Of a stretch of 52,290 nucleotides of DNA, positions 2,289 through 43,884 are shown one piece after another; the stretch's first letter is position 1; the number at the start of each line of letters is the position of its first letter. The position numbers and the translations under genes are program-made. The notes under the pieces are model-generated. The model had not been told where the DNA came from and did not search any database. It saw only the letters and a list, made by a program, of their open reading frames with translations. The DNA lies in assembly GCA_902789445.1 (NCBI GenBank), contig CADAOB010000021.1, positions 1 through 52,290 of the forward strand, read 5' to 3'. This DNA is from an uncultured Bacteroidia bacterium. GTDB lineage: Bacteria > Bacteroidota > Bacteroidia > Bacteroidales > UBA932.

Positions 2289-2362
2289 GACTTCGTTGCT
2301 CCGGGTTTTTACTTCGCTCGCAAAAAAATGCTCGCTCGGCAAAAACCCATCCGCAACTGCGT
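2289..2362 (-). repeat. Palindromic element family A, diverged intergenic copy
   Basis: Read on the minus strand, this 74-bp stretch aligns throughout with the element inside the genes at 14995-15068 and 17454-17527. The inner stem GGGTTTTT/AAAAACCC is kept. The outer stem is GTTGC/GCAAC here, against GCAGC/GCTGC in the genic copies: both sides have changed, and pairing is preserved. Confidence 0.8.
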
Positions 2363-2379
2363 CCTTCTCGTCATCGCGC

Positions 2380-2440
2380 CGGAGCCGGCGAAAAAACGCT
2401 CGTTCGGCAAAAACCCATCCGCAACTGCGTCCTTCTCGCC
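2380..2440 (-). repeat. Partial copy of palindromic element family A
   Basis: A second, truncated family A unit lies directly behind the first. The block from CTCGTTCGGCAAAAACCC through CTTCTCG repeats 2331-2380 with few changes. The whole 2252-2461 gap between fabG and rimO is made of these repeats, and no gene is visible in it. Confidence 0.7.
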
Positions 2441-2461: not shown

Positions 2462-3901
2462 TTATCGGGGGATGTCGGCGATGAGGTCGTATTCGTCAGC
2501 GCCGGTGATCTCCACGTCGATGAACTGCCCGACGAGGCTGGCAGGGTTATCCTGCGCGAAGTCAGAACCATTTCGGGCCAGCGAGGGCGCTTGGCCCGAA
2601 AGAACCGTGACTTCTCCACCAGGCCTGCGCTCGTCCTGCCAGCCGCGGGGATCGACGAGGATTTCGCCGTCGACTTCAGGGGATTCGGTCCGGGAGCGGG
2701 CGACGAGGACGAGATCCCCGGTCAGGGCCGGGGATGACGGGTCGGTCAGGGCCGGGGATGACGAACCGGCCGGGGCCGGGGATGACGGGTCGGCCGGGGC
2801 GAAGGAATCGACGAGGACGCGCTCGCGGGTGCCGATGCGGGAACGGTTGTATGCCAGGGAGATGCCGCTCTGGAGCTCCATCAGGCGGTCGTAGCGTTCC
2901 TGTTTGACCTGGGCCGGTATCTCATCTTTGTAGTGCAGGGCGCCATAGGTCCCTTCTTCTTCGGAATAGGTGAAGGCGCCCAGGCGTTCGAAACGCGATT
3001 CCCGGACGAAATCGAGCAGGTCGCGGAATTCGGCTTCGCCCTCGCCGGGATGGCCGACGATGAGCGTGGTCCGCAGGACGACGCCGGGAACCAGCTGGCG
3101 CATCTTCGCCACCAGTTCGCGCGTCTGCCGGCCGTCGATACCGCGCCGCATCATCGACAGCACCCGGTCGGCGCTGTGCTGCAGCGGGATGTCGATATAT
3201 GGACAGATCTTCGGATTGTCCGCCATGATGCGCAGGACGTCCTCGGGGAAGCCGGTGGGATAGCTGTAGTGCAGGCGGATCCACTGGATGCCGTCGATCT
3301 TGGCCAACTGCTCCAGCAGCCGTGCCAGGCAGCGTTTCCCGTAGCGGTCAAGACCGTAGTAAGTCGTATCCTGGGCGATGACGATCAACTCCCGCACGCC
3401 CTGGGCGGCCAGGCCGCGGGCTTCTTCCACCAGATCCTCGATGGGCACGCTCACATGCGGGCCGCGGATGAGCGGGATGGCGCAGTAGGCACAACTCCGG
3501 TCGCAGCCTTCCGCGATTTTCAGATAGGCATAATGCGAAGGCGTGGTGAGGACGCGGCCCAGGGTGTCAAAAGTCAGCACGCCCTCCCACTGGTCCACCT
3601 CCGGAATCTCGGCCCGGAGCTCCTGCGGGTAACGCTGTGAAAGGCAGCCGAATACCGACAGCTTTTCGATCAGACCGGCTTTCTTGGCCTCGGCCGCTTC
3701 GAGGATGGCTGCGATGGACTCTTCCTTGGCGTCCTGGATGAAGCCGCAGGTGTTGATGATCACCTCATCGACGCCCCCGTCCGCAAGGTCGGCCGTCTCG
3801 GGCACAAGCGTACAGCCGCGCTGCTGGAGGACGCGCAGGAGGTGCTCCGAGTCCACCCGGTTCTTGGAGCAGCCCATCGTCACCACCTGGACCCGTTTCA
3901 C
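2462..3901 (-). CDS. rimO: Ribosomal protein S12 methylthiotransferase RimO, with inserts
   Basis: RimO adds a methylthio group to the conserved aspartate of ribosomal protein S12. The N-terminal cluster cysteines are Cys11, Cys52 and Cys86. The radical-SAM cluster is Cys133, Cys137 and Cys140 in CDRSCAYC. A TRAM domain follows from about residue 355. At 479 residues it is some 40 longer than I would expect. The excess falls in two TRAM loops: a 24-bp tandem repeat (about residues 370-394) and a family B hairpin (about 424-447). The core motif SPEVDGE and the ending survive between and after them. The GTG start (3899-3901) overlaps the TGA of the upstream DUF5606 gene, implying translational coupling. 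Confidence 0.92.
   Translation of the reverse strand: MKRVQVVTMGCSKNRVDSEHLLRVLQQRGCTLVPETADLADGGVDEVIINTCGFIQDAKEESIAAILEAAEAKKAGLIEKLSVFGCLSQRYPQELRAEIPEVDQWEGVLTFDTLGRVLTTPSHYAYLKIAEGCDRSCAYCAIPLIRGPHVSVPIEDLVEEARGLAAQGVRELIVIAQDTTYYGLDRYGKRCLARLLEQLAKIDGIQWIRLHYSYPTGFPEDVLRIMADNPKICPYIDIPLQHSADRVLSMMRRGIDGRQTRELVAKMRQLVPGVVLRTTLIVGHPGEGEAEFRDLLDFVRESRFERLGAFTYSEEEGTYGALHYKDEIPAQVKQERYDRLMELQSGISLAYNRSRIGTRERVLVDSFAPADPSSPAPAGSSSPALTDPSSPALTGDLVLVARSRTESPEVDGEILVDPRGWQDERRPGGEVTVLSGQAPSLARNGSDFAQDNPASLVGQFIDVEITGADEYDLIADIPR
2561..2630. repeat. Palindromic element family B, copy in rimO
   Basis: TTTCGGGCCA (2571-2580) and TGGCCCGAAA (2592-2601) form a perfect 10-bp stem around a GCGAGGGCGC-type loop. 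The stretch from GTCAGAACC to CACCAGGCCTGCGC aligns with 17370-17440 inside the cobalamin aminotransferase. It is translated in frame in rimO, on the opposite strand. Confidence 0.75.
2721..2792. repeat. 24-bp tandem repeat inside rimO
   Basis: Three 24-bp units (GTCAGGGCCGGGGATGACGG type) plus a partial fourth lie head to tail. They are read in rimO as a Ser/Pro/Ala-rich peptide of repeating SSPALT-like blocks. The period is a multiple of three, so the frame is kept. Confidence 0.8.
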
Positions 3902-10580: not shown

Positions 10581-12476
10581 ATGAAAAGAATTGTCTTCGT
10601 CTTATTTTTAATCATTTCCATAGCGGCGGCAGCACAGACCGCGCCGGTGCGCTTCGCCTATCTGAGTGACATCCATATCAGCGAAGGCGCGAACAGCCGC
10701 ATTGAGAACCTCAAGCGCTGCATCGCCGACATCAACAGCCAGCCGGATATCCAGTTCACGATCCTGGGCGGCGACATCACCGATTTCGGCGCCGACCGCG
10801 AATTCGAAATGACCAAGGCCATGCTCGACCAGCTCACCCATCCCTACTGGCTGGTGGCGGGCAATCACGACGCCAAATGGTCGGAGAGCGGCTGCAACAC
10901 CTTCGCCAAGGTATTCGGCTACGAACAGTTCGAATTCGAGGCGGGCGGCATCAAGTTCCTGGGCTGCAACTGCGGGCCGAACATGCGCATGGCGCCGGCC
11001 CTGATTCCGCACGAATCCCTTTCGTGGCTCGATTCCCTCACGCGCGCGCTGCCCCGCGAACAGCCCGTGATCCTGGTGAACCACTATCCGCAGGACACTT
11101 CGGTCCTCAACTATTTCCAGCTGATGAACACGGTCAAGCAGTGCAATATCCAGCTGCTGCTCGGCGGTCACTGGCACCGGAATACGATTCTCAACTACGA
11201 AGGCGTGCCGGGCATCCTGGGCCGCTCCCCCGACCGCGGCAAGGAAGTGGGCTACAACATCATCGACATCCGGGACGGCCAGCTGGCAGCGCACGAGCGC
11301 ATCCTGGTCAACACCGAAGGCCAGGCCATTCCGCCGCAGGACCGCAAGCCCTGGTACACGCAGGCCCTGCACGAGACACCGCAATTCGAACCCGACCGGG
11401 CTTCCGGACGCGACAACCCCTATGGCCTGCCGGGCAACTACCCCTTCCTGAAATTCGACGTCAACCGCGAGTTCCCCAATGTCCGGGAAGTCTGGCGCAG
11501 CCAGGACGAGGGCGACATCGGCTGCGCTGCCGTCAAGGCCGGCCGCTATGTGCTCTATGCCAACGAAGCCGGTGTGGTCAAGGCCCTCGATGCCGCTACG
11601 GGACAGGAGTGCTGGCGCTTCGCCACCGAAGGGAAAGTCTTCTCGACGCCGGCCGTCTGGAAGAAACGCGTCGTCATCGGCTCGACCGACGGCTTCATCT
11701 ACTGCCTCTCCCTGCGCAACGGCCGCCTGCTCTGGCGCTACCGCTGCGACAAATCGGTCCTGGCTACGCCCGCCATCCATAAAGGAATCGCCTACGTCGG
11801 CTCCTCCGACCATGTGTTCCGCGCGCTGAAAGTGCGCAACGGCCGGCTGCTCTGGGCCCGCGAAGGCATCGCCGGATTCGTGGAGTGCCGTCCGTATGTG
11901 GATGACCAGCAGGTTGTTTTCGGCGACTGGGCCAACACGCTCTACTCGCTCGATCCCAAGACCGGTCAGCCGCAATGGACCTGGCATGTGAAAGGATCCC
12001 GGATGCTCTCGCCCGCCGCCGTCTATCCCGTGAAGGCCCACGGCAAGATCTTTTTCGTAACGCCCGAGCGCAAGACCTATGCGCTGGATGCCCGCACGGG
12101 CGAGCAGCTGTGGGTATCCACCGGCGGCCGGGAATCCATCGCCCTGTCGCCCGACAGCGAGACCATCTATGTCAAGACGATGTTCGACAGCGTACAGGCC
12201 TATGCGACAGCGGCTTCCGGCGTCGAAAAGCGCTGGGAGGTCCAGCCCGGTTTCGGCTACGAGATTGCCCCGACGCCCTGCGCATGCAGCGCCGACGGCA
12301 AACTGCTTTTCGTCCCGACCGACAAGGGCAACCTCTTCTGCCTGAACGCCGCCGACGGCGCTCCCCTGTGGAAACACAAGATCTCCGTCGCCATGCTCAA
12401 CAACATCCTCCCCCTCCCCGACAACCAGCTTCTGGTCTCCACGATGGACGGTGTCGTCACGCTGCTGAAGTATTGA
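10581..12476 (+). CDS. Secreted metallophosphoesterase fused to PQQ-type beta-propeller
   Basis: A 631-residue exported protein with an N-terminal signal peptide (cleavage near AAAAQTAP). Residues 25-260 are a calcineurin-like phosphoesterase: SDIHIS, GGDITD, AGNHDA and GGHWHRN supply the metal ligands. From about residue 300 come repeated PQQ/propeller blades such as VKALDAATGQECWRF, GFIYCLSLRNGRLLWRY and VFRALKVRNGRLLWA, in the manner of BamB. The likely site is the periplasm or outer-membrane surface; the substrate is unknown. The propeller may bind a partner or substrate for the phosphoesterase. Its 3' end overlaps the convergent EamA gene by 20 bp. Confidence 0.88.
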   Translation: MKRIVFVLFLIISIAAAAQTAPVRFAYLSDIHISEGANSRIENLKRCIADINSQPDIQFTILGGDITDFGADREFEMTKAMLDQLTHPYWLVAGNHDAKWSESGCNTFAKVFGYEQFEFEAGGIKFLGCNCGPNMRMAPALIPHESLSWLDSLTRALPREQPVILVNHYPQDTSVLNYFQLMNTVKQCNIQLLLGGHWHRNTILNYEGVPGILGRSPDRGKEVGYNIIDIRDGQLAAHERILVNTEGQAIPPQDRKPWYTQALHETPQFEPDRASGRDNPYGLPGNYPFLKFDVNREFPNVREVWRSQDEGDIGCAAVKAGRYVLYANEAGVVKALDAATGQECWRFATEGKVFSTPAVWKKRVVIGSTDGFIYCLSLRNGRLLWRYRCDKSVLATPAIHKGIAYVGSSDHVFRALKVRNGRLLWAREGIAGFVECRPYVDDQQVVFGDWANTLYSLDPKTGQPQWTWHVKGSRMLSPAAVYPVKAHGKIFFVTPERKTYALDARTGEQLWVSTGGRESIALSPDSETIYVKTMFDSVQAYATAASGVEKRWEVQPGFGYEIAPTPCACSADGKLLFVPTDKGNLFCLNAADGAPLWKHKISVAMLNNILPLPDNQLLVSTMDGVVTLLKY

Positions 12477-14825: not shown

Positions 14826-15512
14826 ATGAACCGAATCTATACCCGAACCGGCGATGGTGGGACGACCGGCATCCACGGCGGCACCCGCGTCCCGAAAGAC
14901 GACATCCGCATCGAGGCCAACGGCTGCCTCGACGAACTGAACTGCATTATCGGCGTCATCCGCAGCATGGGATGCCCGGGCACGACGGATCCGCGCGCAG
15001 CAGCGGATGGGTTTTTGCCGAGCGAGCATTTTTCTGCGAGCGAGGTAAAAACCCGGAGCTGCGGAGCGGGCGACGGCGAAAGACGTCCGGTCATGCCGGA
15101 GGGTTGGGACGAAGTTTTACACGGGATCCAACGGAACCTGATGATCGTCATGAGCCTGGTGGCGACGCCGGCGGCGGAGCGGGAAAAGAATCCCAATGTC
15201 CTGCCGGACAACCTCGTGGCCGAGATCGAGGCCCGGATGGACGCGATGACCGAGACCATCGGTCCCGGCCTCCATTTCCTGCTGCCCGGCGGTACCCCCC
15301 TGGCCGCCCGGCTCCAGCTCGCCCGCGCCGTGTGCCGCCGCGCCGAACGGCGCCTGTGGACCCTCCACCGCCAGGATCCCCTCCCCGATAACATTCTCCA
15401 ATACATCAACCGCCTTTCCGACCTGCTCTTCGTCATGGCCCGCTGCGAACTGGCCAGCCAGCAATGGCCCGAAGAACGCTGGCAGGCCTTCGCCTATAAA
15501 AACCAGAAATGA
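14826..15512 (+). CDS. PduO-type ATP:cob(I)alamin adenosyltransferase, with insert
   Basis: This enzyme transfers the adenosyl group of ATP to cobalt(I) corrinoids. The N-terminus RIYTRTGDGGTTGIHGG is the PduO ATP-binding signature. The C-terminal half has LPGGTPLAARLQLARAVCRRAER and the trimer-forming helix ending LLFVMARCELA. At 228 residues it is about 40 longer than typical. The excess lies after DELNCIIGVIRSMGC, in the loop between the first two helices. There a 74-bp palindromic repeat encodes about residues 57-81 (GFLPSEHFSASEVKTR), followed by a further short unusual stretch. The reading frame is intact. Its TGA overlaps the ATG of cobyric acid synthase. Confidence 0.93.
   Translation: MNRIYTRTGDGGTTGIHGGTRVPKDDIRIEANGCLDELNCIIGVIRSMGCPGTTDPRAAADGFLPSEHFSASEVKTRSCGAGDGERRPVMPEGWDEVLHGIQRNLMIVMSLVATPAAEREKNPNVLPDNLVAEIEARMDAMTETIGPGLHFLLPGGTPLAARLQLARAVCRRAERRLWTLHRQDPLPDNILQYINRLSDLLFVMARCELASQQWPEERWQAFAYKNQK
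14995..15068 (+). repeat. Palindromic element family A, in-frame copy in adenosyltransferase
   Basis: The 74 bp appear identical to 17454-17527. They fold on GCAGC/GCTGC outside and GGGTTTTT/AAAAACCC inside, with two GCGAGCGAG-type boxes in the loop. The frame used gives the peptide GFLPSEHFSASEVKTR. Confidence 0.9.
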
Positions 15513-17011
15513 ACGACCGTCTCCATCCCGTCATGTTCGCCGGCACCGGCAGCGATGTCGGCAAGAGCATCATCGCCACGGCCTTCTGCCGCATTTTCCG
15601 GCAGGACGGCTATACGCCCGCCCCGTTCAAGGCCCAGAACATGGCCCTCAACTCCTTCGCCACCCCGGAAGGACTGGAAATCGGCCGGGCACAGGCCGTC
15701 CAGGCCGAAGCCGCCGGCATCCCCTGCCACACCGACATGAACCCCCTGCTGCTCAAGCCCCAGAGCGACCATACCTCCCAAGTCGTGCTCAACGGCCGGC
15801 CCATCGGCAACCGCGACGCCTACGACTATTTCCGGAAAGAAGGCCGCGCGGAACTCCGCGAGGCCGTTTACGCCGCCTACGACCGCCTGGCAGCCCGGCA
15901 CAACCCCGTCGTCCTGGAAGGCGCCGGGAGCCTGGCCGAGATCAACCTGCGCGACTCCGACCTGGTGAACGTCCCGATGGCCATGCACGCAGGCGCCGAC
16001 ATCATCCTGGTGGGCGACATCGACCGCGGCGGCGTATTTGCCAGCGTCTATGGCTCGGTCATGCTGCTCCGTCCCGAAGAGCGGCGCTACGTCAAGGGCA
16101 TCCTCATCAACAAGTTCCGGGGCGACCTCAGGCTCTTCGAGGAAGGGCGCAGGATGCTGGCGGAACTTTGCGGGATTCCGGTGCTGGGCGTGGTGCCCTA
16201 CTACCACGACATCCACATCGAAGAGGAGGATTCCGTGGCCCTGGCGGCCAAATCGGCGGCCGCCCAGCGCGGCAAGGTGAATGTCGCGGTGGTGCTGCTG
16301 CGCCACATCAGCAATTTCACCGATTTCAACATCCTGGAGCAGGATCCGCGGATCCATCTGTTCTACAGCAACAACGTGGATGAACTGGCCAAGGCTGACA
16401 TCCTCATCCTGCCGGGCAGCAAGAGCACCCTCGACGACCTGTACGAAATCCGGCGCAACGGCGTGGCCCAGGCCATCCTGCGCGCACGGCGCGAAGGCGC
16501 GACGGTGCTGGGCATCTGCGGCGGCTACCAGATGATGGGCCGGCAGATCCGCGACCCGCAGCACGTGGAGGGGACGATCGAAGCGATGCCGGGCCTGGGG
16601 CTCTTGCCGATGGTGACCGAAATGCTGCCGGAAAAGGTGACGCGCCAGGTGCGTTTCGGCTTCGCCGACGGAAAGGCCGCGGATTCTTCGATGGAAGGCT
16701 ATGAGATCCACATGGGCGAGACCCGCCCTGCCGACGGAAGCGAGGCCGCGCCGCTCGTCCGTTTCGCCGACGGCCAGACCGACGGCTGCCGGGTGGATGA
16801 CAAATGCATGGGCTGCTACATCCACGGCATCCTCGACAACCCCGCCTTCATCGACCGCCTGCTCGCCCCGTACGGCGACAAACTGACGGAAGCCGCCACG
16901 AGCTTCGACTACCACGCCTACAAAGAACAGCAATACGACCGGCTGGCCGACCACGTCCGAAAATATGTGGATGTGCCGCTGCTCTACGATATCCTGCGCG
17001 GGAAGCGCTGA
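15509..17011 (+). CDS. cobQ: Cobyric acid synthase
   Basis: CobQ/CbiP amidates four side chains of adenosylcobyrinic acid a,c-diamide with glutamine and ATP, giving adenosylcobyric acid. The 500-residue length is normal. The N-terminal dethiobiotin-synthetase-like domain has AGTGSDVGKSII (P-loop) and PFKAQNMALNSF. The C-terminal glutaminase domain has ILPGSKST, the nucleophile cysteine in GICGGYQMMG (about residue 337) and the histidine in CYIHGILDN. Its ATG overlaps the preceding TGA and its stop directly abuts the next ATG, so it is the second gene of a tight operon. Confidence 0.96.
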   Translation: MNDRLHPVMFAGTGSDVGKSIIATAFCRIFRQDGYTPAPFKAQNMALNSFATPEGLEIGRAQAVQAEAAGIPCHTDMNPLLLKPQSDHTSQVVLNGRPIGNRDAYDYFRKEGRAELREAVYAAYDRLAARHNPVVLEGAGSLAEINLRDSDLVNVPMAMHAGADIILVGDIDRGGVFASVYGSVMLLRPEERRYVKGILINKFRGDLRLFEEGRRMLAELCGIPVLGVVPYYHDIHIEEEDSVALAAKSAAAQRGKVNVAVVLLRHISNFTDFNILEQDPRIHLFYSNNVDELAKADILILPGSKSTLDDLYEIRRNGVAQAILRARREGATVLGICGGYQMMGRQIRDPQHVEGTIEAMPGLGLLPMVTEMLPEKVTRQVRFGFADGKAADSSMEGYEIHMGETRPADGSEAAPLVRFADGQTDGCRVDDKCMGCYIHGILDNPAFIDRLLAPYGDKLTEAATSFDYHAYKEQQYDRLADHVRKYVDVPLLYDILRGKR

Positions 17012-18172
17012 ATGCCTATGCTGCAAGGACACGGAGACGACCTCTACCGCTTCGCGCGGCCCATCCGGGCGAATTTCAGCTCGAATGTACCCGGCCGCGT
17101 GGACCTGGGCGCGCTGAAAGCCCATCTTCAGGCGCACCTCGACCTGATCGGACATTATCCCGAACCGGAACCTTACACCCTGGAAGCGGCCCTGGCCGCG
17201 AAGCATGCCATCGACCCCGCCGCCGTCTGCGCGACCAACGGCGCCACCGAAGCCATCTATCTGATCGCCCACGCCTTCGCCCGCAGCCACAGCACCATCC
17301 TCCAGCCCACCTTCAGCGAATACGCCGACGCTTGCCGGCTGTATCATCATCTCATTATCCCCGGCGCGCGTCAGAACCTTTTCGAACCAAGCGAGGGCGC
17401 TTTGGTCCGAAAGAACCTGCCGCTCCACCAGGCCTACGCACAAATAAAGGAAAGCGCAGCAGCGGATGGGTTTTTGCCGAGCGAGCATTTTTCTGCGAGC
17501 GAGGTAAAAACCCGGAGCTGCGGAGCGTTGTTTTGGCTGTGCAATCCGAACAATCCGACCGGGAGCGTCGTACCCGTTGACAAATTGCGGGCAGCCATCG
17601 AAAACCATCCCCAAACGATCTTCGTCATCGACCAGTCCTACGGATTCTTCACCCGGGAGCCCCTGCTCAGCGCCGCCGAAGCCGTCCGCTACCCCAACGT
17701 CATCCAACTCCATTCGATGACCAAACGCTACGCCATGCCCGGCCTGCGGCTCGGCTACATGACAGGCTCCCCGACCCTGCTCGCGCACATCCGAAACTTC
17801 CGGATGCCCTGGTCCGTCAACGCCCTGGCCATCGAAGCCGGCCTGTACCTGTGCGCCCATCCCGAGACGGCCCCCATCGACCTGCCGGCCCTGCTGGCAG
17901 AGACCCGGCGGCTCCGGGAACGGCTCAACACCCTGCCCGGCCTCACGGCAGAGCCGACGCAGACCCATTTTTTCCTCTGCCGCCTGGCCACCCACCGGGC
18001 CTCCGACCTCAAACAATGGCTGGCCGACCGGCATGGCCTGCTGATCCGCGACGCATCCAATTTCGAAGGACTCGATGCCGGCGCTTTCCGCATCGCCACG
18101 CAGACGCCCGAAGAAAACGAGCTGCTGGTGGAGGCCGTCCGGCAATATCTCGAAGAGGAGGCTGTCCGATGA
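17012..18172 (+). CDS. cobD: Threonine-phosphate decarboxylase-like aminotransferase (CobD), with two inserts
   Basis: A PLP enzyme of the class I/II aminotransferase fold. In this operon it should decarboxylate L-threonine phosphate to the aminopropanol phosphate linker of cobalamin. NFSSNVPGRVD, TNGATEAIYLIAHAF, CNPNNPTGSV and the PLP lysine Lys238 in SMTKRYAMPGLRLGY are clear. Between EYADACRLYHHL and FWLCNPNNPTG there are about 50 extra residues: a family B hairpin (residues 120-143) directly followed by a family A element (148-172). A histidinol-phosphate aminotransferase role is the alternative, but the neighbours argue for cobalamin. ATGA overlap with cbiB. Confidence 0.88.
   Translation: MPMLQGHGDDLYRFARPIRANFSSNVPGRVDLGALKAHLQAHLDLIGHYPEPEPYTLEAALAAKHAIDPAAVCATNGATEAIYLIAHAFARSHSTILQPTFSEYADACRLYHHLIIPGARQNLFEPSEGALVRKNLPLHQAYAQIKESAAADGFLPSEHFSASEVKTRSCGALFWLCNPNNPTGSVVPVDKLRAAIENHPQTIFVIDQSYGFFTREPLLSAAEAVRYPNVIQLHSMTKRYAMPGLRLGYMTGSPTLLAHIRNFRMPWSVNALAIEAGLYLCAHPETAPIDLPALLAETRRLRERLNTLPGLTAEPTQTHFFLCRLATHRASDLKQWLADRHGLLIRDASNFEGLDAGAFRIATQTPEENELLVEAVRQYLEEEAVR
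17370..17440. repeat. Palindromic element family B, in-frame copy in cobD
   Basis: TTTCGAACCAA (17380-17390) and TTGGTCCGAAA (17402-17412) pair with one mismatch around GCGAGGGCGC. The element from GTCAGAACC to CACCAGGCCTACGC aligns with 2561-2630 in rimO, both written on the plus strand. Confidence 0.75.
17454..17527 (+). repeat. Palindromic element family A, in-frame copy in cobD
   Basis: This copy appears identical in all 74 bases to 14995-15068, 2.4 kb upstream, and is read in the same frame and orientation relative to translation. It begins only 14 bp after the family B copy. Confidence 0.9.
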
Positions 18173-35370: not shown

Positions 35371-37836
35371 TCATATCGACAGGATGTCTTGCAGGAGGCC
35401 GCCGGCGGTCTGGCGGGGGCCGGCGCCGGCGCCGCGGATGACCAGCGGTGAGGGATAATCAGCGGTGGTGATGACGGCGCAGTTGTCGGTTCCGGCCAGC
35501 GAATAGAGCGGACTATCGGGGTCGACGGCCTGCAGACCGATGGATATCTGCCAACGCGGAACGACGCCCCGCCCGGAAGCGGATGCGGCGTCGCACAGCA
35601 GGTCGGCGGCGTCCGGCGAGCCGGCAGGACGCGGCGAAGTGGCGGAACGGGGCGAGCCGGCAGGACGCGACGAAGTGGCGGGACGCAGCGAAGCGACGTA
35701 GCGGAGGCGGCGGCCGGCGGCGCTGGCGGCCGCGTAGGCGGCGGCCAGGTCGGCTTCGGCCGGGAAGGCCTCGAGACGGATGTCGGCTTCTTCAAGCGGA
35801 AGGCCGGCTACGCGGGCGAGAATCAGCGTCTTGCGGAGGACGTCGCGGCCGCTTAGGTCGATGGCCGGGTCCGGCTCGGTGTATCCTTTCTGGCGGGCGT
35901 CTTCGACCAACGCAGCAAAATCGTGACCTTCATAGTGGTCGCACAGGTAATTGAGCGTTCCCGACAGGACAGCCTCCACGCAGACAAGCGTGTCGCCGGA
36001 GACGGCGGCCCGGTCGAGCGCCGCGAGAATCGGCAGGGCCGCACCGACCGTCGTCTCATAACGGAGGCCGACGTGCGAACGCGCTGCCGCTCCGGTGAGC
36101 GCTGCATAGCTTTCATAGCTGCCGGAGAACGGGATCTTGTTGCAGGCCACCACGTTGTAGCCGGCCTTGAACAGTTGCGGATAGCGGAGCCCCGTCTCTT
36201 CACTGGCCGTACAGTCCACGAAGACCGCGTCGGCCAGCGACAGGCCGGCAAGCGCATCGAAGAAGGAACCGGCCACGCCCTGTTCCAGGGCGGAAGGATC
36301 GACCCCGGCCGTGTCGATCAGATAGCGGCGGCTGTTGGCCAGGCCGCAGATCCGCAGGTCCTTGCCGGTCCGGCGGGCGATGGCGTCGTGATTCTCCCGG
36401 ATCATCCGGACCAGCGCCTTCCCGACCGTTCCGTAGCCGGCAATGAACAGGTTGACGGTCCGCAGCGGCGAACGGTCGAAGAATTCCCCGTGGATGGCCC
36501 GGATGGCCTCGTCGGCCTTGTCGGAGGCGACGATCACCGAGATGTTCCGTTCGGAAGAGCCCTGCGCCGTAGCCCGGACCGGGATGCCGCGTGCGCCCAG
36601 CGCCGCGAGCATCCGGCCCGTCGCGCCGCTGTGTCCCAGGATGTCGTCACCCACCAGGCAGACGATGGAATAGCCCGTCTCCACCTTGAGCGGCTGGAGT
36701 TTTCCCAGGGAGATTTCGTAGGCGAAGCAGGTATCGGCCGCCTGCTTGGCCGCCGGGGCGTCCGCCTCGGCGATGGCGATGCACATCGTATGGACCGAAG
36801 AGGCCTGCGTGATGAGGATGATGTTGATGCCGGCGCGCGTCAGGGCATCGAACAGCCGGGACGAGAAGCCGGGAATCCCGACCATGCCGCTGCCTTCCAG
36901 CGAGATCAGCGCGATCTTGTCGGAATTGGCGATGCCCAGCAGCGCTTCTTCGCGGCGCGGCGGGTTCTTCTCCACCAGGGTCCCGGGGTCGTCGGGGGCA
37001 AAAGTATCTTTTACATAAATGGGAATCCCTTCGTTGATGACGGGCTGGATGGTCGGGGGAAAAATGACTTTCGCCCCGAAATGGGAGAGTTCCTGCGCAG
37101 CGCGGTACGAAATGTTGCGGATGGTCCGCGCCGTGGGAACGGTCTTGGGATTGGTGGTCATGATGCCGGGCACATCCGTCCAGATTTCAACCAGGCGGGC
37201 CTTGACCGCGACGGCAAAGAGCGATGCGGTATAGTCGGAACCGCCGCGTCCCAGTGTGGTCACGCGCCCCAGTTCGTCGGAAGCGATGAAACCGGGCACA
37301 ATGAACAGCGCCGTATGCGGCTGGCTTTCGACGGCCGCGGCTATCTTCTCATTGGTCAGCGCCGTATCGACGACCCCGTTGTGGGTACGGACCAGTTCCC
37401 GGGAATCCAGCCAGCGGCAGGGAATGCCCAGCGAAGTGAATTTGGCCGCCAGAATCTTCGTGGAAAACAGCTCGCCGTAACTCTGGATGGCATCCAGGCT
37501 CGCTGGACTGAGTTCCCCCAGCAGGAAGACACCGTGCAGGATACCGCCCAGTGAATCGAACAGGCTGTCCACCGCAGCGCGGACCTCCGGAATCCGTCCG
37601 GCCGGGAGGAGCTGCGTCATCATTTCCTGATGACGGACGGCCAAACCGTCCAGCTCTGCCAGATAGGACTCGTCCCGCTCGGAAGCGAGCCGGCCCAGCC
37701 GGATCAGGGTGTCGGTACAGCCGCTGAGGGCGGAACAGACCAGGATGGTGCGGTCGCGCTCCAGCGAGGCACGCACGATTTCGATGATTCTTTCGGGAGA
37801 AGAGACGGACGTGCCGCCGAATTTCATCACTTGCAT
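35371..37836 (-). CDS. thrA: Bifunctional aspartokinase/homoserine dehydrogenase, with repeat insert
   Basis: The 821-residue fusion carries aspartokinase at the N-terminus (MKFGGTSVSS, GRGGSDYTAS). Two ACT domains for feedback control follow (ISLEGSGMVGIPGFSSRLFD region). Homoserine dehydrogenase starts near residue 460 (LFIAGYGTVGKALVRMI, FVDCTAS, EPDPAIDLSGRDVLRK). Between GRRLRYVASL and GVVPRWQISIGLQ there is an Ala/Ser/Pro/Arg-rich insert of about 35 residues encoded largely by 36-bp tandem repeats (residues about 717-740). The ending with VIRGAGAGPRQTAGGLLQDIL is normal. Its start overlaps metX by 10 bp. Confidence 0.95.
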   Translation of the reverse strand: MQVMKFGGTSVSSPERIIEIVRASLERDRTILVCSALSGCTDTLIRLGRLASERDESYLAELDGLAVRHQEMMTQLLPAGRIPEVRAAVDSLFDSLGGILHGVFLLGELSPASLDAIQSYGELFSTKILAAKFTSLGIPCRWLDSRELVRTHNGVVDTALTNEKIAAAVESQPHTALFIVPGFIASDELGRVTTLGRGGSDYTASLFAVAVKARLVEIWTDVPGIMTTNPKTVPTARTIRNISYRAAQELSHFGAKVIFPPTIQPVINEGIPIYVKDTFAPDDPGTLVEKNPPRREEALLGIANSDKIALISLEGSGMVGIPGFSSRLFDALTRAGINIILITQASSVHTMCIAIAEADAPAAKQAADTCFAYEISLGKLQPLKVETGYSIVCLVGDDILGHSGATGRMLAALGARGIPVRATAQGSSERNISVIVASDKADEAIRAIHGEFFDRSPLRTVNLFIAGYGTVGKALVRMIRENHDAIARRTGKDLRICGLANSRRYLIDTAGVDPSALEQGVAGSFFDALAGLSLADAVFVDCTASEETGLRYPQLFKAGYNVVACNKIPFSGSYESYAALTGAAARSHVGLRYETTVGAALPILAALDRAAVSGDTLVCVEAVLSGTLNYLCDHYEGHDFAALVEDARQKGYTEPDPAIDLSGRDVLRKTLILARVAGLPLEEADIRLEAFPAEADLAAAYAAASAAGRRLRYVASLRPATSSRPAGSPRSATSPRPAGSPDAADLLCDAASASGRGVVPRWQISIGLQAVDPDSPLYSLAGTDNCAVITTADYPSPLVIRGAGAGPRQTAGGLLQDILSI
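35617..35688. repeat. 36-bp tandem repeat inside thrA
   Basis: Two 36-bp units beginning CGAGCCGGCAGGACGCG, at 35617 and 35653, differ at only a few bases, and a partial third follows. The period keeps the frame and gives a repeated ATSxRPAGSP peptide. Confidence 0.8.
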
Positions 37837-43007: not shown

Positions 43008-43068
43008 CGGCAACGCCCCGCACAAGCTTGCCCTGCGGCCTCCTGCCCGGCCCGCCTTCCCCATTTGC

Positions 43069-43177
43069 GATGCAATGTACACATCAGTCAGTCAGCGACT
43101 TGCGCAAGTTGATCCCCTCGGTTTCCGAGGGGATCAACTTGCATAATCAGCTGATAATCAAGCGTGTCCGTTGCAGC
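43069..43177 (+). repeat. 109-bp inverted-repeat (MITE-like) element, copy 2
   Basis: It starts GATGCAATGTAC and ends GTCCGTTGCAGC. The centre is a perfect 18-bp stem, GCAAGTTGATCCCCTCGG (43104-43121) with its inverse at 43125-43142 and a TTT loop. It lies between the uvrA-like gene and a convergent lipoprotein gene and is about as long as the whole gap. Confidence 0.85.
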
Positions 43178-43636: not shown

Positions 43637-43721
43637 TTCACGATTGTTTTACCATTAAATGCAGCTTCCGGGAAAACCTTGCGCAGGCGCTCTCAAATGT
43701 CATCCCCGCCTATGCCCCCCG

Positions 43722-43840
43722 TTTGCGCTGCAATGTACACATCAGTCAGTCAGCGACTTGCACAAGTTGACCCCCTCGGTTTCCGAGGGGATCAACTTGC
43801 GTAATCGGCTGATGCTCAAATGCGTCCGTTGCAGCGCAAA
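43722..43840 (+). repeat. 109-bp inverted-repeat (MITE-like) element, copy 3
   Basis: The core 43727-43835 is very similar to copy 2. The outer inverted repeat is extended to 12 bp here: TTTGCGCTGCAA and TTGCAGCGCAAA. The central stem has one mismatch (GACCCCC against GATCCCC). It sits in a divergent gap, so it is not simply a shared terminator. Confidence 0.85.
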
Positions 43841-43884
43841 AATAATAAAAAAAATGGTTTTAACTTTTGAACGATTTTTGCGAC

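Follow-up and report, generated by a model that had tools for sequence, protein, structure and literature searches.

Why do two cobalamin genes of one bacterium hold an identical 74-bp stretch that is read in the same frame in both? The question is raised by contig CADAOB010000021.1 (GenBank assembly GCA_902789445.1) of an uncultured Bacteroidia bacterium of the Bacteroidales lineage UBA932; its positions 1 to 52,290, taken at full length, are referred to here as the window, and the genome to which it belongs (G000; 2.26 Mb) is 84% complete. We found that the two stretches are copies of a dispersed hairpin, here called element A, which occurs between genes and in frame within genes in many genomes of the genus. 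The family, a dispersed and protein-coding hairpin of one Bacteroidales genus, is real and well supported, while we infer its translation, mobility and effects on fitness. The copies in the window and the genes around the identical pair are as follows.

2289 to 2362, reverse strand: copy of element A between genes (repeat search; covariance model, 84.6 bits)
2367 to 2430, reverse strand: weak or partial copy of element A, truncated or decayed (BLAST match at 2392-2429; covariance model, E 0.014, 23.3 bits)
14826 to 15512, forward strand: cobO, PduO-type ATP:cob(I)alamin adenosyltransferase, with the insert at about residues 49-90 (Pfam Cob_adeno_trans, NCBIfam, alignment, AlphaFold)
14995 to 15068, forward strand: copy of element A in frame in cobO, encoding the peptide AAADGFLPSEHFSASEVKTRSCGA (repeat search, translation; covariance model, 91.3 bits)
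15509 to 17011, forward strand: cobQ/cbiP, cobyric acid synthase, between the two host genes (reading frame and NCBIfam)
17012 to 18172, forward strand: cobC/cobD, L-threonine-O-3-phosphate decarboxylase-like pyridoxal phosphate enzyme, with a variable stretch at about residues 116-172 (Pfam Aminotran_1_2, NCBIfam, structure comparison)
17454 to 17527, forward strand: copy of element A in frame in cobC/cobD, identical to the cobO copy (repeat search, translation; covariance model, 91.3 bits)

The repeat search of the window shows that positions 14995-15068 and 17454-17527 agree at all 74 bases, and both copies are read in the same frame into AAADGFLPSEHFSASEVKTRSCGA; an example of the predicted peptide across the insert is DGFLPSEHFSASEVK. 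The RNA fold of the 74-mer beats those of all 200 shuffled sequences (z -5.43), indicating an imperfect palindrome, and five of its six reading frames are free of stop codons. A sequence-only reading of this DNA had proposed the identity, the common frame and the palindromic character, and the repeat search, the translations and the fold agree with it. It had also called the two cobalamin genes adjacent, but cobQ (15509-17011) separates them. The cobO product matches the NCBIfam model for cob(I)yrinic acid a,c-diamide adenosyltransferase (PduO_Nterm) above its cut-off. For the cobC/cobD product the top NCBIfam model is TIGR01140 (threonine-phosphate decarboxylase CobD), whose 248.3 bits fall short of the cut-off of 290.55; among solved structures, the P. 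gingivalis enzyme 3fkd is nearest. In both enzymes the extra protein sequence exceeds the 74-mer: residues 49-90 of CobO correspond to 2 residues in the related genome G011, and residues 116-172 of CobC (57 aa) correspond to 18 in 3fkd. Other repeats adjoin the 74-mer in the host genes, including a hairpin of a second family at 17362-17446. Of the proposal that each copy adds its peptide at a loop, the variable loop site holds, while the extra protein stretch is longer than the 74-mer.

Element A is dispersed through its own genome, where BLAST returns 23 matches at E<=1 (the lowest-scoring at chance level) and a covariance model, built from an alignment of 45 full-length copies of this and related genomes, returns 23 matches at E<=0.1. 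These matches exclude a chance identity of the two window copies, as had been argued from the letters alone. In a survey of 40 genomes of the genus, the model finds matches at E<=1e-3 in 21, with 52 in G001 (the maximum), 48 in G004, and just one or two weaker matches each in G010, G013 and G016. Among 295 genomes sampled from the order, the own genome is the only one that the model matches, in a search that scored 16 own-genome candidates and recovered 16 own copies, compared with 21 in the dedicated own-genome search at the same threshold. The exact 21-nt core of the element is present in 47 stretches of a collection of 84,980 species genomes, all titled Bacteroidales or Bacteroidia and many from ruminants, and it has no match among viral contigs; an Rfam scan of the window gives no family at gathering score. 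The search of the 74-mer in its own genome and relatives, which the sequence-only reading had suggested, reveals a dispersed palindromic family of the genus that is absent elsewhere in the collections searched.

The hairpin structure is maintained through compensating changes. In the 45-copy alignment, standard pairs fill 92.1% of the cells that the structure pairs, a share biased upward because the structure was partly derived from the same sequences. Double changes are a stronger sign: 14 of the 18 pairs have changed on both sides, and 75 cells carry double changes, compared with a mean of 20.5 in shuffled alignments and at most 12 when the partner is slid. Sliding the partner lowers all pairing measures, and the excess of further pair types over shuffles is less clear (the value is attained in 27 of 500 shuffles). 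The stem co-varies, and the loop and the borders are nearly constant. Among 106 distinct copies, the motif GCGNAGC, which may form a d(GCGNAGC) mini-hairpin, stands at the 5' end of 45, at the 3' end of 42 and at both ends of 34, whereas it stands at the 5' end of 0.25% of mononucleotide shuffles.

We examined the location of 109 copies, 20 from the own genome and 89 from G001, G004, G008, G011, G052 and G053. The automatic gene caller places 35 of them in frame in genes, 5 at gene edges and 69 between genes. It had assigned the window CobC copy to a shadow frame on the antisense strand, and four coding copies had been filed elsewhere, namely those in CobO of G053, CobC of G008, an HhH-domain protein of G001, and CobC of G004 (G004:C15:43133-43204, between two CobC match blocks). 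After manual correction, in which these four were added, the tally is 39 in frame in genes, 67 between genes and 3 at edges. The intragenic copies lie in sense orientation in 30 of 39 cases and antisense in 9 (p 0.001), counts that, like the 39 itself, depend on manual reading. Where the flanking genes are co-directional, 29 of 36 copies are oriented with transcription (p 0.0003); convergent gene pairs enclose 18 intergenic copies and divergent pairs 11, and these intergenic orientation counts come from the same caller and may hold similar errors. The median distance of intergenic copies to a gene 3' end is 25.5 nt. Stop codons do not account for the sense bias, because the reverse frames, read from the 5' end of intergenic copies, are at least as stop-free (0.88-0.94) as the favored sense frame (0.81). 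GC skew along the own contigs is weak and mixed, so a bias with transcription is not separable from one with replication.

The usual peptide of element A approximates GGF.SREHFSASGTK.RAAEP. and recurs in unrelated proteins. The hosts include DnaX and an HI0933-like flavoprotein, both confirmed by Pfam and NCBIfam, and, as read by eye, a ferredoxin-type membrane protein, an ABC-F ATPase, an HhH protein, rhamnulokinase, HydF, an RluA-like protein, WbqC and several cobalamin enzymes. Some clustering at cobalamin genes is seen as well: three of the 20 full-length own copies are on this 52-kb contig (window 2289-17527; p 0.01), and by eye several cobalamin genes of G004 (G004:C15:28239-43204), G008 (G008:C18:43426-50122) and G053 carry the element.

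We aligned the host enzymes with orthologues, a comparison that the sequence-only reading had called for, and found that the insert occupies one variable loop in each enzyme and is lacking in most relatives aligned. In CobO, VIRSM and the following helix bound the variable stretch; among 12 relatives of the same genus, three carry element A (G004, G008 and G023), G007 has another repeat, G010 has a longer unrelated stretch, and seven have at most about 10 extra residues. In CobC, the variable stretch lies between YADACRLY.H and WLCNPNNPTG; three of 12 relatives carry element A (G011 in sense, G004 and G008 in reverse), two have other inserts (G003 and G007), and seven have a short loop. G053 carries element A in both cobO and cobC, in sense. 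Of 30 DnaX loci, seven hold the element in the linker (G008 in reverse), and two of the 23 proteins of the other loci end early, within or after the linker. No unrelated Bacteroidota with the same peptide at both cobalamin sites was found among the relatives searched.

AlphaFold models of the window enzymes, built with 17 (CobO) and 15 (CobC) aligned sequences, give a predicted local distance difference test score below 50 at residues 53-55 and 61-84 of CobO and 125-136 and 152-170 of CobC, and above 90 in most core blocks. The low model confidence suggests that the insert peptide is disordered. The ratio of nonsynonymous to synonymous substitution rates of the host enzymes is 0.13-0.34 in six comparisons, and values below 0.4 suggest that the enzymes are functional. 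Insertion is compatible with the host fold, by prediction for CobO and CobC and by alignment for the DnaX linker. In G007, a different repeat stands in both CobC and CobO (G007:C145:9591-9749 and 12011-12169; 83% identity over 161 alignment columns). It folds no better than shuffles (z 0.05), and beside its CobC copy, by eye, is a stretch resembling the 3' end of element A.

The two strands of the element seem not to be equivalent. Across 94 distinct aligned copies, the middle helix of the sense strand has 16 G-U cells and 3 A-C cells (p 0.004 by cells); counted by copies, 13 have G-U and 3 have A-C, one of these having both (p 0.02). Over all helices, G-A mismatches number 33 and C-T mismatches 1. 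The cells are not independent, and alignment errors in the outer helix contribute to these counts. It appears that the strand matching the mRNA is the one with the constrained fold, which points to recognition of one strand during spread, either as RNA or as one strand of single-stranded DNA.

The sequence-only reading had also held that the copies moved recently. Its weak support is that the window pair is the sole non-orthologous pair with 100% identity among the 109 copies. On the other side, the CobO insertion may be old, judging from its shared position in G000, G004, G008, G023 and G053. If it is, the identity with the CobC copy needs recent copying or gene conversion, and gene conversion between cobO and cobC explains the identical pair as well as transposition does. 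The nearest non-orthologous neighbor lies in the same genome for 47 of the 109 copies (mean 18.7 and maximum 33 in 500 label shuffles), indicating that copies amplify or convert within lineages. Fifteen cross-genome pairs have similar flanks, with element identities of 0.73 to 1.0, and these insertions would predate the species if the flanks are orthologous. By eye, the flanks show several border types (AGCGA/AGCG, AAGG/CCCG, AAGC/CG), with no single target-site duplication such as marks a miniature inverted-repeat transposable element, and an autonomous partner was not found. At some sites (L187, L190 and L248) the palindrome, again by eye, continues beyond the element with letters particular to each site, as though the neighboring DNA had been copied inverted.

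The second hairpin family, family B, is smaller than element A and has the same design, with a constant loop, constant borders and a stem that changes freely and stays nearly always complementary. Its copies in the window are as follows.

2561 to 2630, forward strand: family B hairpin, antisense to rimO (2462-3901, reverse strand) and read through in rimO near the C-terminus (dispersed-repeat search, pairing count, translation)
17362 to 17446, forward strand: family B hairpin beside element A in cobC, with the constant loop AGCGAGGGCGCT, a co-varying stem and AGAACC borders (dispersed-repeat search, pairing count)

The own genome holds eight clear matches of family B and a weak one, and its exact pattern is found in 4 of the 40 genus genomes, compared with none for the control. 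Among the eight copies the loop changes once and 76 of 79 stem pairs are standard, their letters changing by compensation; on its own, the window copy does not fold clearly better than shuffles (z -0.67). The window also contains other repeats. Three 24-nt tandem units stand in frame in rimO (2462-3901, reverse strand), 18- and 36-nt tandem units lie at 35615-35704 inside an 821-aa reading frame (35371-37836, reverse strand), and a 69-nt tandem unit (93% identical) at the contig end (52149-52290) looks related to repeats of contig C2. In addition, a dispersed 115-nt palindrome with ends like CGCTGCAACGGACGC / GCGTCCGTTGCAGCG has copies at 222-335, 43059-43177 and 43714-43843; elsewhere in the genome it stands on both sides of a Y1 transposase gene (G000:C1:138500-143800, L345) that resembles the transposases associated with repetitive extragenic palindromic (REP) sequences, known as REP-associated tyrosine transposases (RAYT).

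We consider it highly probable that element A, a dispersed hairpin of about 74 nt, is non-autonomous and acts in the manner of a Rickettsia palindromic element (RPE). Copies would spread by copying in trans (transposition or a retro-type process) and by gene conversion, and most of those landing in coding DNA would be purged. Copies in disordered linkers or surface loops could survive, because five of the six frames of the 74-mer are stop-free, and the host would translate the element as a short spacer; the identical cobO/cobC pair would stem from a single recent copying event, or from a single recent conversion that joined two insertion-tolerant loops. Several points weigh against this explanation. 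The 109 copies are the best-scoring ones of a few genomes and not a random sample, with one stretch on two G004 contigs counted twice, and the genomes are incomplete assemblies. Over all helices the strand asymmetry is not clear, with just 23 G-U against 16 A-C cells (11 of the 16 at one apical pair). No clean pair of empty and filled sites with an exact junction or a target duplication was obtained, and the best such pair (DnaX, G023 compared with G004) differs by 123 nt, exceeding the element. The translation of the insert is itself predicted from sequence. Finally, in none of 28 Y1 transposase loci (25 distinct genes, searched usually with flanks of 1.5-2.5 kb) does element A stand at the gene edge, and no mover is tied to it.

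These Y1 genes bear on the possibility that element A is REP-like and mobilized in trans by RAYT-like Y1 (HuH) transposases, as a satellite of their flanking hairpins. PF01797 (Y1_Tnp) matches 27 of the 40 genus genomes at E<=0.001, above the cut-off in 25, and it is present in 20 of the 21 genomes with element A and 7 of the 19 without (Fisher p 1e-4), although these counts are uncorrected for shared ancestry and the co-occurrence may reflect clade structure. The 20 Y1 genes read encode products of 289-336 aa, two proteins match the RAYT model NF047646 (E 1e-9 to 6e-9, below cut-off), and the constraint on one strand fits recognition of single-stranded DNA. However, what adjoins most of 20 Y1 loci viewed by eye is other hairpins, and a repeat search of ten loci gives inverted repeats of varied kinds. 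Element A turns up in just two of the 28 Y1 loci, at a distance of about 1.9 kb from the gene (47- and 32-bit matches), with one further match at E 0.28. By inspection, the 45-copy consensus has neither a GTAG nor a CGTC tag at its ends, and G018 has eight copies and no Y1 match. We regard mobilization by these transposases as possible but on balance not the likely explanation.

The element might instead serve chiefly as a functional RNA motif, such as a hairpin for the stability or processing of mRNA at the 3' ends of genes, with the coding copies as by-products. This would fit the short median distance to 3' ends (25.5 nt) and the 29 of 36 copies that point with transcription, the 16 to 3 excess of G-U over A-C in the middle helix, and the nearly constant loops with variable stems that are typical of structured RNA. 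We think this unlikely to be the chief role of the element, which is without a match in 19 of the 40 genus genomes and has coding copies in both orientations, and Rfam finds no known family in the window. Position is also no proof of function, as REPs of many species are likewise near gene 3' ends (PMC3733652). The recurrence of the same peptide frame in unrelated proteins could instead suggest a protein module shared by the enzymes, such as a targeting or interaction tag. This is already disfavored and very improbable: the same genes carry the element in reverse or in another frame (DnaX and CobC of G008, CobC of G004), most aligned orthologues are without it, the stem letters vary freely while pairing is kept, and the low confidence of the models points to a disordered peptide. 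The assemblies are incomplete and, by the titles seen, metagenome-derived, but an assembly or binning artefact is barely conceivable, as in-frame copies recur with species-specific sequence in the same genes of separately assembled species. In general, moreover, a 74-nt repeat is shorter than ordinary sequencing reads.

A wider idea, which we offer tentatively and think rather doubtful as a whole, is that element A and family B form a class of mobile hairpins recognized by the shape of the transcribed strand. Their spread would be transcription-coupled or RNA-mediated, entry into proteins would be a side effect, the sense bias would be a signature of the copying mechanism and not of selection alone, and the two cobalamin loops would be recurrent docking sites in several species. 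Whatever the mechanism, inserted peptides that are not ancestral form part of the gene models and predicted structures of these bacteria, which calls for caution in their use. The family also offers comparative material for testing how such elements spread and whether hosts gain from them: it spans many species, reaches 52 copies in a genome, is present in some orthologues and missing from others, and fills the same loops in either orientation.

We compared element A with known systems as described in the literature. RPEs (Ogata 2000 and 2002, cited by way of PMC10969869 and PMC2229807) are palindromes of 105-146 bp that lie in frame in many Rickettsia genes; an RPE-bearing guanylate kinase is translated and active, and the RPE position is reported to be compatible with the host fold (PMC2229807; PMC10969869). 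The likeness to RPEs proposed from the sequence alone has been strengthened by the many more in-frame copies found in unrelated proteins. Element A is likewise a short palindrome with many copies, both intergenic and in frame in unrelated conserved genes, and with a recurrent peptide. It differs in length (about 74 nt) and in the phylum of its hosts, and every record with its exact 21-nt core has Bacteroidales or Bacteroidia in the title. Judged by host, size and core sequence, element A would be a family of its own.

GTAG and CGTC REPs also occur inside genes, adding 20-30 aa, and near gene 3' ends in several species; different REPs occupy about the same recB site in two Xanthomonas species, and CGTC REPs are reported from Bacteroidetes (2013; PMC3733652). 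Element A resembles these intragenic REPs as a palindrome in coding regions with intergenic copies near gene 3' ends, but it is longer, has no GTAG or CGTC end tag and is not beside a transposase gene in the loci searched. The protein-coding palindromes of Wolbachia are reportedly also small non-autonomous repeats fused in frame, in other hosts and of other sizes. The same holds for ERIC/RU-1 (ERIC, enterobacterial repetitive intergenic consensus) and Correia elements, likened here by description and not by sequence (PMC2229807). RAYT subclass 2.6 is mostly from Bacteroidetes and has atypical flanking structures (PMC6006769). It shares the phylum and, as with the 115-nt palindrome here, hairpins beside the gene with copies elsewhere, a likeness that carries no subclass assignment of the present Y1 genes; element A itself was not found beside the Y1 genes inspected. 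The sequence-only reading knew of no such family in Bacteroidota, which stands for in-frame palindromic elements, as none was recognized in the open-licence literature searched; it needs qualifying for the CGTC REPs of Bacteroidetes and for the intragenic REPs known outside Rickettsia.

The effect of protein-coding palindromes on proteins is described as unexplored in a review (PMC10969869). Such palindromes are known best from bacteria that live inside cells and have reduced genomes, and element A brings in a second, unrelated lineage, that of gut bacteria. To the picture drawn from RPEs it adds measured stem covariation, a strand asymmetry and the filling of the same loops in several species, with the CobC and DnaX sites filled in either orientation across species.

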